From: Daejeonella sp. H1SJ63
GTDB taxonomy: Bacteria > Bacteroidota > Bacteroidia > Sphingobacteriales > Sphingobacteriaceae
Direction of reading: 5' to 3'
DNA length: 64,000 nucleotides
Assembly (NCBI RefSeq): GCF_029360775.1
Contig: NZ_JARKMZ010000037.1
Coordinates: forward strand, 1-64,000
Shown: piece by piece, positions 8,866-13,178 of the stretch
Layout of the letters: every line of letters begins with the position of its first letter
How positions within the stretch are numbered: position 1 is the stretch's first letter
Program-made: the position numbers and the translations under genes
Notes under the pieces: model-generated
What the model was told of the DNA's origin: nothing
Databases searched by the model: none
The model's input: only the letters and a program-made list of their open reading frames with translations

Positions 8866-9517
8866 GATTAATAAGAGTGAAGTTGAACAGAAAGTAGCTG
8901 AATTTTTGCTACAAATTAAAGCAATAAAATTACAACCTAATAATCCATTTACCTGGGCTTCAGGTTGGAAATCCCCAATTTATTGCGATAATAGGATTAC
9001 CCTTTCACACCCTGCTATTCGTACTTATATTCGTCAGAAACTTAGCTCTCTGATCCAGGAGGAATTTGGATCTGTATCAGTGATAGCAGGCGTGGCTACT
9101 GCCGGTATTCCCCAGGGTGTTTTGGTTGCACAGGAATTAGGCCTGCCTTTTATCTATGTAAGATCCAAAGCCAAAGAACATGGAACAGGAAGTTTGATTG
9201 AAGGAGAATTCTCTCCAGGACAACGTGTTGTTGTTGTTGAAGACCTGATTTCTACAGGAAAAAGCAGTCTGCAGGCCGTACATGCCCTGAGAGATGCAGG
9301 TTGTGAAGTTGCCGGACTTGTTGCTATTTTCAATTATGGATTTGCTGCCGCTGATGAAAATTTCAAAAATGCCAAGTGCAGATTTTTAACTCTTTCAAAT
9401 TATAATTCCCTTATCGATTATGCTGCGGAGCATAGTTTTGTTTCAGCCGATGATTTAAAGCTATTAAGAAAATGGCGCGAAGACCCGCAGGCATGGGGAA
9501 ATAATATTGAAAGCTAA
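8864..9517 (+). CDS. pyrE: Orotate phosphoribosyltransferase
   Basis: Makes orotidine 5'-monophosphate from orotate and PRPP in de novo pyrimidine synthesis. It has 217 residues. The PRPP-binding motif VVVVEDLISTGKSS lies near residues 121-134. The substrate segment WASGWKSPIYCDNR is near residue 31 and AGVATAGIPQG near residue 77. Its ATG overlaps that of the divergent NUDIX gene. An SRPBCC-like gene follows 10 bases after its stop, likely in the same transcript. Confidence 0.97.
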   Translation: MINKSEVEQKVAEFLLQIKAIKLQPNNPFTWASGWKSPIYCDNRITLSHPAIRTYIRQKLSSLIQEEFGSVSVIAGVATAGIPQGVLVAQELGLPFIYVRSKAKEHGTGSLIEGEFSPGQRVVVVEDLISTGKSSLQAVHALRDAGCEVAGLVAIFNYGFAAADENFKNAKCRFLTLSNYNSLIDYAAEHSFVSADDLKLLRKWREDPQAWGNNIES

Positions 9518-9527
9518 TCATAAGCCC

Positions 9528-9926
9528 ATGACAACTATTGAAAGCAGAGTTAATATCAATAAACCGGTAAGTGAAGTATTTGCTTTCCTTGCTGATCTGA
9601 ATAATCACCAGCAATTGATGCCTGAGAATATTTATAACTGGTCATCAACAAAAGATGAAGCCCGCTTTACTATTCAGAACATGGCAAAACTTGCGCTGAA
9701 AGTATCCTCCATAACTCTGGATAAAGAAATTGTTGTAAAACCCTCTGAGCAGGCGCCATTTGAACTTGAATTAAAATGGACCTTAAATGATTTAGGCAAG
9801 GGACAAACTGAAGCGGTGTATACCATTTCTGCCGACCTCAACATGATGATGAAAATGATAGTTTCAGGTCCACTGCAAAAGCTGGTTGACCACGAAGCCG
9901 GTACACTTAAATCAGTCTTAGCCTGA
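9528..9926 (+). CDS. SRPBCC-like (START/polyketide cyclase fold) protein
   Basis: A 132-residue protein from the ATG at 9528; a TTG at 9507 inside the pyrE end is less likely. The opening TIESRVNINKPVSEVFAFLADLNNHQQLMP is the usual first strand and helix of the SRPBCC ligand-binding fold (xxxVxIxxPxxxVFxFLsDxxN). The C-terminal long helix is visible as LQKLVDHEAGTLKSVL. No signal peptide. The hydrophobic ligand is unknown. It is 10 bases from pyrE and probably co-transcribed. Confidence 0.75.
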   Translation: MTTIESRVNINKPVSEVFAFLADLNNHQQLMPENIYNWSSTKDEARFTIQNMAKLALKVSSITLDKEIVVKPSEQAPFELELKWTLNDLGKGQTEAVYTISADLNMMMKMIVSGPLQKLVDHEAGTLKSVLA

Positions 9927-9950: not shown

Positions 9951-10120
9951 GAGGCTGTTTCAAAAGTCATTTTTGATTTTAATGCAGACCTTAAATGAAC
10001 TTAAAACGGCAATTTCCGATGTGAAAATTGCCGTTTTCTATTAGTTTTTAGAATCAAAAATAAATTGATCTGAATTTAATTCCGTTTTTAAATCTTAGTT
10101 TTTGCTTTTGAGAAAGCCTC
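9951..10120. mobile_element. MITE-like element, 170 bp
   Basis: Non-coding segment bounded by imperfect terminal inverted repeats: GAGGCTGTTTCAAAAG at the left (9951-9966) and GAGGCTTTCTCAAAAG on the opposite strand at the right (10105-10120), 14 of 16 matching. Inside are a second inverted pair (ATTTTTGATT near 9970 against AATCAAAAAT near 10051-10062) and a central 13-bp perfect hairpin (10003-10015 with 10025-10037). The layered palindromic design, absence of a gene and IS-like ends fit a miniature inverted-repeat element. No clear target-site duplication is seen. Confidence 0.6.
10003..10037. terminator. Hairpin inside the MITE-like element
   Basis: Perfect 13-bp stem (AAAACGGCAATTT / AAATTGCCGTTTT) with a 9-base loop and A/T runs on both sides. 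It could stop transcription leaving the pyrE pair, but it is also the core of the repeat element. Confidence 0.55.
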
Positions 10121-10168
10121 TATCTTTTGTAATTTATTACGGGTACCCAATTAAAACACTGAAAAACA

Positions 10169-10244
10169 GACAATTTAGCAGTTCAATTCATTTTCAACCG
10201 ACAATTTTTCAGTTCAGCGCAAAATAATCAGACAGATTTTCTGT
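10169..10244 (+). promoter_or_regulatory. Three 31-bp-phased repeats upstream of clpB
   Basis: Three related sites start at 10169 (GACAATTTAGCAGTTCA), 10200 (GACAATTTTTCAGTTCA) and 10231 (GACAGATTTTCTGT). The starts are exactly 31 bases apart, three helical turns, so the same DNA face is presented. Each is a loose palindrome of GACA with C-A/T-G. They lie 62-137 bases before clpB and look like operator or activator sites. The cognate regulator is unknown; they are not CIRCE elements. Confidence 0.5.
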
Positions 10245-10305
10245 AAGGGAGCTATAAAATACACCTGGCAACTGATTTGAGCATAAGCAAGCATAGACAA
10301 TTACC

Positions 10306-12906
10306 ATGAATCTAAACAACTTCACTATCAAAGCACAGGAAGCAGTTCAAAAAGCTTCTGAAATAGCAAGCGGTAATCAGCAACAAGCTATTGAAACTGC
10401 CCACATTCTAAAAGGCCTATTAAGTGTTGACGAGAATGTGATCAGTTACCTGTTAAAAAAACTGAATGTAAACCTAAACCGCATCTCTGAGGTTTTGGAT
10501 GCTCAGATCAAAAGCTTCCCGAAAGTAAGTGGAAGTGATATCTATCTGGCTTCCGGAGCAAATAGTGCATTGCAGAAAGCAATTTCATACCTGAAAGAAT
10601 TTAAAGATGAATTTGTTTCTGTAGAGCACATCCTGCTTGGATTATTAAGTACCGGAGACAAAGTGAGTTCGATCCTTAAAGATGCCGGAGTTAATGAGTC
10701 GGATCTTAAGAAAGCTATCCTGGAACTGAGAGGCAACAGCAGAGTTACCGACCAGAATGCAGAGGCAACTTATAATGCACTGAATAAATATGCCCGCAAT
10801 CTGAATGAATATGCTGAATCAGGGAAACTGGATCCGGTAATCGGACGCGATGAAGAGATCAGGAGAGTGATCCAGATCCTTTCCCGAAGAACAAAAAACA
10901 ATCCAATATTAATCGGAGAGCCCGGAGTTGGTAAAACTGCCATAGCAGAAGGTATTGCCTTCAGGGTAATTCAGGGAGATGTGCCTGAAAACCTGAAGTC
11001 TAAAACGGTTTATTCACTGGATATGGGTGCCCTGATTGCCGGTGCAAAATATAAAGGAGAATTTGAAGAACGTTTAAAAGCAGTAATCAAGGAGGTTACT
11101 CAAAGTGACGGGGAGATCATTCTTTTCATTGATGAGATTCACACACTTGTCGGTGCAGGTGGTGGCGAAGGTGCAATGGATGCGGCAAATATCCTGAAAC
11201 CAGCCCTGGCTCGGGGAGAGTTAAGAGCAATCGGCGCCACTACCTTAAATGAGTATCAAAAATATTTCGAAAAAGATAAAGCTCTGGAACGTCGTTTTCA
11301 GAAAGTTATGGTCGACGAGCCAAGTACACAAGATGCCATTTCTATTCTAAGAGGTTTAAAAGAGAGATATGAGACTCATCATAAAGTAAGAATTAAAGAT
11401 GAGGCGATCATTGCGGCAGTAGAATTGTCGCAGAGATATATTTCAGACCGCTTCCTTCCGGATAAAGCGATCGACCTGATGGACGAAGCTGCATCTAAAC
11501 TTCGTCTCGAGATGGATTCAGTTCCGGAAGCAGTGGATGAACTGGATCGTAAGATCATGCAGCTTGAAATTGAACGCGAAGCCATAAAAAGAGAGAACGA
11601 CGAGAAAAAAGTTAAAGAACTTTCTGAAGAAATCGCCAACCTTTCATCTGAACGAGACTCATTAAGAGCACGCTGGAAAGCTGAAAAAGACCTTGTTGAA
11701 GCGATTAACAATCAGGGAGAACAGATTGAAAACTTTAAGCTGGAAGCTGATCAGGCTGAACGTGCCGGAGATTATGGCAAGGTTGCTGAGTTGAGATACG
11801 GTAAGATCAAGGAAGCTCAGGACCGTGCTGAAGAGCTGAAAAAACAGCTTGCGGATACTCAGATCGACAACAGAATGCTGAAAGAAGAAGTTACATCTGA
11901 AGATATTGCTGGAGTGGTGTCTCGCTGGACCGGAGTACCTGTTACAAAAATGATCCAGAGTGAACGTGAGAAACTTCTTCATATGGAAGCTGAACTTCAC
12001 AAACGTGTTGCCGGCCAGGAAGAAGCAATTGAAGCCATTTCGGATGCAATACGCCGCTCAAGAGCAGGTTTACAGGATAAACGTAAGCCTATCGGATCAT
12101 TTATCTTTCTGGGAACTACCGGCGTTGGTAAAACCGAGCTTGCCAAAGCTTTGGCCGAGTACCTGTTCAATGATGAGCATGCTATGATACGCATTGATAT
12201 GAGCGAATATCAGGAACGTCATGCAGTATCAAGATTAATCGGAGCGCCTCCGGGATATGTTGGATACGATGAAGGAGGGCAACTTACTGAAGCAGTTCGC
12301 AGAAAGCCATACTCTGTAATCCTGCTTGACGAAATCGAAAAGGCACACCCTGATGTATTCAATATACTTCTGCAGGTACTTGATGATGGAAGATTAACAG
12401 ATAATAAAGGACGTTTGGTTGATTTTAAGAATACAATCATCATCATGACATCCAATATTGGTTCGCACCTGATCCAGGATAACTTCAAAGATTTATCCGA
12501 AATCAACCGTGAAGAAGTTATTGCCAAAACAAAAACAGAACTGTTTGACCTTTTAAAGCAAACCATCAGACCAGAATTCCTTAACAGAATTGATGAGCTG
12601 ATTATGTTTACTCCTTTAAATCGTGAAGAACTGAGAGACATTGTAAGTCTTCAGTTTAAAGGGGTGCAGAATACCCTGGCTGATATGGGTGTGGAAATTG
12701 AAGCTTCTGAAGAAGCCCTTGACTGGCTTGCACAGTTAGGATATGATCCTCAGTTTGGTGCCCGCCCGTTAAAGCGTGTCATTCAAAAGAGAATACTGAA
12801 TGAGCTTTCTAAAGAGATACTTTCAGGTAAGATTGATAAAGACAGCAAAATTAAGCTGGATGTATTTGACAATCATTTTGTATTCCTGAATGCAGACAAT
12901 GCTTAA
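10306..12906 (+). CDS. clpB: ATP-dependent chaperone ClpB
   Basis: Hexameric AAA+ disaggregase that pulls polypeptides out of aggregates together with DnaK. It has 866 residues, full length. The Clp N-domain (1-145) opens [20 protein letters not shown]1 has Walker A GEPGVGKT near residue 205 and Walker [10 protein letters not shown]. The coiled-coil middle domain spans about residues 400-520. NBD2 has Walker [12 protein letters not shown] near residue 604 and Walker [15 protein letters not shown]. The middle domain and lack of an IGF/L ClpP loop separate it from ClpA/ClpC. It is monocistronic, preceded by phased repeats and followed by a strong terminator. Confidence 0.98.
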
Positions 12907-12921
12907 CAGATAATTCTATTA

Positions 12922-12961
12922 AACAACTAAGCCCCGGGATAAATCCCGGGGCTTAGTTGTT
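12922..12961. terminator. Bidirectional terminator between clpB and the cold-shock gene
   Basis: Perfect 17-bp inverted repeat (12922-12938 with 12945-12961), core GCCCCGGG/CCCGGGGC, 6-base loop. It lies between the convergent ends of clpB and the minus-strand cold-shock gene. Confidence 0.85.
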
Positions 12962-12989
12962 TTAGGATGTAATATATGATCTAAAAATA

Positions 12990-13178
12990 TTAAGCAAGTC
13001 TAACATTTACTGCACTTAATCCCTTCTTACCTTCTTCAACATCAAATTGCACTTTATCATTTTGTCTTATATCCTGTTTTAGTCCACTTACGTGAACGAA
13101 AATTTCTTTGCCATCCTCAAGGGTAATAAATCCGAATCCTTTGGACTCATTGAAAAATTTTACTGTACCGGTTTCCAT
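12990..13178 (-). CDS. Cold-shock domain protein (CspA family)
   Basis: Single cold-shock domain of 62 residues that binds single-stranded RNA or DNA. RNP1 appears as KGFGFITL (residues 13-20) and RNP2 as IFVHVSGL (residues 26-33). It starts METGTVKFFNESKGFG as usual for the family. The upstream 160 bases contain no gene and could form a structured 5' leader of the kind that regulates csp genes, though no specific element was recognised. Confidence 0.95.
   Translation of the reverse strand: METGTVKFFNESKGFGFITLEDGKEIFVHVSGLKQDIRQNDKVQFDVEEGKKGLSAVNVRLA

Follow-up and report, generated by a model that had tools for sequence, protein, structure and literature searches.

Phased dyads and a putative sigma-54 promoter upstream of clpB in Daejeonella, with a candidate activator widespread in Bacteroidota

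The clpB locus and its upstream region

The DNA analysed here, referred to as the window, is a 64 kb stretch of Daejeonella sp. H1SJ63 (contig C31 of the genome that we denote G000), an organism whose family includes Pedobacter and Mucilaginibacter relatives. Its plus strand carries an open reading frame for clpB (10306..12906), the regulated gene, which encodes an 866-aa disaggregase whose orthologues in the genus are full-length and 89-96% identical. A perfect 13-bp hairpin (AAAACGGCAATTT / AAATTGCCGTTTT, 10003-10041) followed by T-rich DNA probably terminates transcription of the gene at 9507-9926 and so shields clpB from transcripts that begin upstream. Another strong hairpin lies 3′ of clpB (AAGCCCCGGGATAAATCCCGGGGCTT, 12925-12965) and is likely an intrinsic terminator. 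The gene directly downstream of clpB encodes a cold-shock-like protein of 62 aa on the minus strand (12990-13178), and such a gene adjoins clpB in several genus relatives too.

A preliminary description of this DNA had reported one motif occurring three times at 31-bp intervals upstream of clpB. The spacing is exactly 31 + 31 bp, and the motif, GACAATTTW, is matched exactly at 10169 (GACAATTTA) and 10200 (GACAATTTT), whereas the agreement of the third site at 10231 (GACAGATTT) is limited to GACA and part of the remainder. The 9-mer by itself is not enriched, since the window holds only these two matches versus 3.1 expected by chance. Three copies of GACA in 31-bp steps are found at one place in the 64 kb and in none of 100 shuffles; since motif and spacing in this comparison were picked post hoc, with the data already seen, conservation is the fairer and independent test.

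The repeat unit proved to be longer than first noted, and consists of imperfect 15-bp palindromes on the plus strand, all of them putative enhancer sites. Dyad 1 (CAGACAATTTAGCAG, 10167..10181) is centred on 10174, at about -118 from the predicted transcription start, dyad 2 (CCGACAATTTTTCAG, 10198..10212) on 10205, at about -87, and the promoter-proximal dyad 3 (CAGACAGATTTTCTG, 10229..10243) on 10236, at about -56.

Directly downstream of the three dyads lies a sigma-54-type -24/-12 element (TGGCAACTGATTTGAG, 10266..10281, plus strand), with the -24 GG at 10267-10268 and the -12 GA at 10279-10280. This adjacent promoter had been overlooked in the preliminary description, as had the full extent of the dyads and the class of regulator to which they point, a bacterial enhancer-binding protein. 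Sigma-54 promoters are defined by GG at -24 and GC at -12 with 10 bases between them, and we regard this definition as met in the window, where the TGG-N8-TTG geometry is exact. The -12 sequence counts against the assignment, since the window and most of its clpB relatives have GA there (TTGA instead of TTGC); GC is found at this position in the clpB locus L009 and in several lon promoters. Transcripts of sigma-54 promoters begin about 12 nt past the -12 element; from the -24/-12 geometry only, the transcription start is predicted at 10292 on the plus strand, approximately 14 nt before the clpB ATG. A mapped start assigned to the sigma-54 motif is available solely for the Flavobacterium psychrophilum orthologue. 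Chance alone would give 0.8 matches to the bare pattern TGGYA-N5-TTTGA in 64 kb, so the case for a sigma-54 promoter rests on conservation. We set aside a function of the repeats at the RNA level, since the dyads precede the conserved promoter and should not be part of its transcript.

Conservation, occurrence at other heat-shock genes and helical phasing

We aligned the regions upstream of 18 clpB orthologues from those genus genomes that are readable there. All 18 loci contain the sigma-54-type TGG-N8-TTG, 17 of them at the aligned position (as TTGC in L009), and the three-site array is likewise present in 17 of the 18, with spacings nearly all of 31-32 bp, so that sites and spacing are both conserved at related clpB genes. 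Two features are prominent in the alignment, namely the three dyads and, 3′ of them, TGGCAAT-N4-TTTGAG, a block with exact sigma-54 -24/-12 geometry (GG, ten bases, GA or GC). The majority-base fraction is 0.72, 0.89 and 0.82 for dyads 1, 2 and 3, respectively (Mann-Whitney p = 5e-11), and 0.82 for the TGG block (p = 3e-6), compared with 0.51 for the spacers, dyad 2 being the best conserved of the three. Dyad 1 is aligned in the genus relatives at 30-33 bp from dyad 2, and dyad 3 is conserved in them as CTGACAAAATTTCAG-like sequence, with 34-35 bp from its GACA to the TGG in the aligned loci. As judged from this sequence conservation, the 31-bp array is real and not a product of chance. The exception in the alignment is the genome G007, which has a canonical sigma-54 site (TTGGCAGAATTTTTGCT) elsewhere, with its TGG 66 bases before the ATG, and a single clpB dyad, which lies 129 bp upstream of the promoter and is half a helical turn off the common phase. 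RpoN (PF04552) is encoded in all 20 genus genomes. A genus scan with a pattern for the clpB arrangement found it in 8 of the 20 genomes, together with three probable chance matches.

Beyond the genus, we inspected 80 named clpB loci of other Bacteroidota, including Pedobacter, Mucilaginibacter, Sphingobacterium, Flavobacterium, Draconibacterium, Adhaeribacter and others. Many of them combine the dyad TGNCA-N3-TGNCA with TGG-N8-TTG, and their dyads are often cleaner (e.g. GACATTTTGTC). Other heat-shock genes were analysed in the window genome, four genus relatives, two Pedobacter and two Flavobacterium species, where sigma-54 sites and exact or one-mismatch TGNCA-N3-TGNCA dyads were observed at dnaK, groES, grpE and htpG; a few of these promoters remained unscored for want of a start codon or a strict sigma-54 match. 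Of the further genes at which the preliminary description had advised a search, dnaK and groES thus have dyads, and the one hsp20 gene checked has neither a sigma-54 site nor a dyad. Both were also lacking at hscA, encoding a DnaK paralogue, in four genomes. A sigma-54 site is present at lon. In most genomes examined, the lon sigma-54 promoter is followed by a conserved dyad (CTGTCATAATGACGTTAT), which lies approximately 28 nt before the ATG (e.g. L203 of the window genome, L201, L202, L204 and L205), and is possibly a downstream enhancer or a repression site.

Position matrices were trained only on the dnaK, groES, grpE and htpG promoters, without clpB. Applied to 98 clpB upstream regions, they find a sigma-54 element plus dyad in 82% at the 5% shuffle threshold and in 58% at the 1% threshold. 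The 80 clpB loci above the 5% threshold show strong conservation of the -24 and -12 bases. The window clpB has a combined score of 10.3, above the 5% threshold (6.3) and below the 1% threshold (11.2), and dyad 2 is the site that the matrix chooses. In 18 of the 20 genus genomes, a tight dyad/sigma-54 pattern gave about one match each, mostly in the grpE promoter, compared with one match for the reversed control. The statement that the sites are not CIRCE also held: the best CIRCE match has 8 mismatches in the window promoter and at least 5 in any heat-shock promoter examined. The best HAIR and CtsR matches have 5 and 7 mismatches in the window promoter and 4 and 4 in any heat-shock promoter examined, and all three operators were rejected for lack of a good match.

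Distances from dyad centre to TGG were collected from 50 non-redundant clpB loci (n = 63) and show peaks at 19, 29-30, 50-51, 59-62, 82 and 92-93 bp. A period of 10.5 bp fits best (R = 0.84), with a statistic of 44.3, whereas 200 shuffles gave at most 5.6. The loci share ancestry, the influence of which is lessened, not removed, by collapsing them to 32 lineages, and the period then is 10.45 bp. Phasing was also observed outside Sphingobacteriaceae and Flavobacterium (R = 0.80, n = 39) and for the dyads of other heat-shock genes (R = 0.82, n = 42). It follows from the period of approximately 10.5 bp that the distance of the dyads changes by whole helical turns and that they present the same face to the sigma-54 element. 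Enhancers usually lie 100-150 bp upstream of the promoter and are reached by DNA looping (PMC7057263). As expected of an enhancer array, the dyads lie upstream and keep to one side of the helix as seen from the promoter. They do not satisfy the expectation of the typical distance and looping, with centres only some 56, 87 and 118 bp upstream of the predicted start in the window and down to about -45 in other species. We infer, from sequence and not from binding data, that the array works like an enhancer but from closer than usual. The original idea of phased sites for a regulator that binds cooperatively at heat-shock genes is supported by the conservation, the shared dyads and the phylum-wide phasing, with binding itself inferred. 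From the sequences, the clpB upstream region is very probably a sigma-54 promoter with activator sites.

EBP2 as candidate activator

Three sigma-54 activators are encoded in the window genome, EBP1, EBP2 and EBP3, of which EBP1 and EBP3 are response regulators. A search for local targets of EBP3 revealed no sigma-54 site in the YtxH-side region. EBP2, a protein of 412 aa (G000:C12:81782-83017), combines an AAA+ domain (Sigma54_activat, PF00158, 226 bits) with a Fis-type HTH (HTH_8, 46.6 bits) and has no receiver. Its GSFTGA loop is kept in most orthologues, and the three hallmarks of a sigma-54 activator (Sigma54_activat, GAFTGA-type loop and HTH) are all met. The linker of approximately 110 residues contains a helix, ERDILYKVLFDMkkDMxDLKKLV (ERDILYKVLFDM..D..DLKKLV), whose conservation across the phylum makes it a possible regulatory contact. 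The PspF equivalog model TIGR02974 matches along the length of EBP2 at 269 bits, without reaching its cut-off of 443.6, and the solved structures closest to it in sequence are those of the AAA+ domains of NtrC-family activators (ZraR, FleQ, LuxO and PspF).

Orthologues of EBP2 were found in all 20 genus genomes (82-93% identity among relatives) and, at full length, in 48 of 50 other Bacteroidota genomes (56-79%). Of the remaining two, one contains an N-terminal fragment, its assembly being apparently gapped, and in the other, a small genome, none was found. The EBP2 gene lies between miaB and lptE, and groES follows 1.8-3.5 kb downstream on the same strand in 44 of 53 genomes. Most Bacteroidota genomes have 2-14 sigma-54 activators. 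EBP2 is the sole one found in G007, which is 100% complete, and in the MAGs G009 and G016; sigma-54 promoters with dyads are present at clpB and groES in G007 and G009 and at clpB in G016. Because no other activator was found there, EBP2 should be the working activator in these three genomes. We consider EBP2 the probable activator of clpB, a role that rests on elimination and gene context.

Two further observations concern the activators of the phylum. In the 2.1 Mb genome G189 (clpB locus L122), neither EBP2 nor GroES was found, and TGG-N8-TTGC and a dyad-like sequence are still there upstream of clpB; either the assembly is incomplete or another activator is used. A second group of short activators (approximately 390 aa) recurs in many genomes of Flavobacteriaceae, Cytophagales and Bacteroidales, is 43-46% identical to the AAA+ domain of EBP2 and likely also lacks a receiver.

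Alternative readings and proposed mechanism

The promoter might be sigma-54-dependent with EBP1 or EBP3, or hexamers of these mixed with EBP2, on the clpB dyads. This would accord with the presence of several activators in the window genome and most other Bacteroidota, with the degeneracy of the clpB dyads relative to TGNCA-N3-TGNCA, and with the assignment of clpB to co-expression cluster B415 and of groEL/dnaK to B254 in F. psychrophilum (PMC9723704). The genomes with EBP2 alone nevertheless keep sigma-54 promoters and dyads at clpB and/or groES, and among the activators the groES linkage is that of EBP2, so that we regard this reading as quite improbable. Co-conservation of dyads and sigma-54 element in a fixed helical phase across the phylum, and the lack of CIRCE, HAIR or CtsR matches, speak against binding of the dyads by a repressor or other non-sigma-54 heat-shock regulator with an incidental or independent TGG...TTG. 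Binding data that could exclude a repressor are missing, the dyads extend near the promoter, where repressors frequently sit, and a dyad is conserved downstream of the lon promoter; even so, such a regulator is very improbable.

A standard Bacteroidota sigma-A promoter (TAnnTTTG -7 box), in which the TTTG at 10276-10279 would serve as the -7 element, is scarcely credible. The Bacteroidota -7 box does include TTTG (PMC9723704) and the distance from TTTGA to the ATG would fit a short leader, but what is invariant is a TGG eight bases upstream of the TTG and not a TA two bases upstream, a -33 TTTG is not conserved in the genus alignment, and F. psychrophilum clpB was mapped to the sigma-54 motif class (PMC9723704). 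Mere chance repetition at 31 bp, in favour of which stands the unenriched 9-mer, is already refuted by the conservation of sites and spacing in relatives and retains a negligible likelihood.

Our preferred reading, to which we assign a probability of roughly three in four, is that the region holds both enhancer and core promoter for a heat-shock gene dependent on sigma-54, with EBP2 as its most likely activator. RNA polymerase with RpoN would form a closed complex at 10266-10281, and up to three EBP2 dimers would occupy the three dyads on one helix face, 31 bp being three turns. The dimers together would build a hexameric AAA+ ring, whose ATP hydrolysis would open the closed complex. EBP2 would also control dnaK, groESL, grpE and htpG, and probably lon. 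That EBP2 binds this DNA, places a single dimer on each dyad, assembles into a hexamer and responds to heat is all inferred. By analogy with PspF and PspA, EBP2 might be activated by release from a chaperone, a guess that we consider unlikely to be right. It is also conceivable, though doubtful, that EBP2 is a dedicated, receiver-less master heat-shock activator of Bacteroidota which acts from promoter-proximal, helix-phased dyads and not from remote enhancers by looping, is kept inactive by a chaperone (perhaps via the linker helix) and is freed when unfolded proteins titrate the chaperone.

Several known systems resemble parts of this arrangement. At E. coli norVW, according to PMC2941729 (citing Tucker 2010), three enhancer sites likewise lie upstream of one sigma-54 promoter and scaffold a hexamer of the activator NorR. 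NorR differs in its NO-sensing GAF domain and in its target, nitric-oxide detoxification and not a heat-shock regulon. The NorR dyad also differs from the clpB dyads. LuxO and NtrC bind short palindromic activator sites, that of LuxO (TTGCA-N3-TGCAA) having the same 5-3-5 geometry, but their half-site sequences and regulons are different from those of the clpB dyads. PspF shares with EBP2 an AAA+ domain plus Fis-type HTH, the lack of a receiver and a connection to stress genes, whereas EBP2 is distinguished by its long linker with the conserved helix, another gene neighbourhood and its TIGR02974 score below cut-off. HrcA/CIRCE, HspR/HAIR and CtsR also represent bacterial heat-shock operators, but these are repressor operators with unrelated sequences.

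Mapping of 5′ ends in F. psychrophilum has assigned sigma-54 (SM4) motifs to groESL, lon, dnaK, grpE-dnaJ, htpG and clpB, leaving the activator open among three candidates (PMC9723704), and in a 2025 survey the predicted sigma-54 targets of Bacteroidota were enriched for chaperones (PMC12316311). Both works concern the same sigma factor, phylum and genes (clpB, groESL, dnaK, grpE, htpG and lon), but the promoters were mapped or predicted only, and dyads, phasing and activator are absent from the searchable text; that of PMC9723704 does not mention palindromes, inverted repeats or upstream activating sites. Further literature searches found no activator assignment, although an earlier description cannot be excluded because supplements and subscription journals were outside their scope. 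Sigma-54 promoters at chaperone genes are already known, whereas the phased dyads and the activator assignment are undescribed in the searchable literature.

The analysis names one nearly universal candidate protein, its DNA site, a positional rule and the target genes for the heat-shock response of Bacteroidota, the regulator of which has, to our knowledge, not been established. If the assignment is true, the heat-shock regulon of these bacteria would depend on sigma-54, and not on an RpoH-type sigma factor or an HrcA, HspR or CtsR repressor, with activator sites nearer to the promoter than usual.
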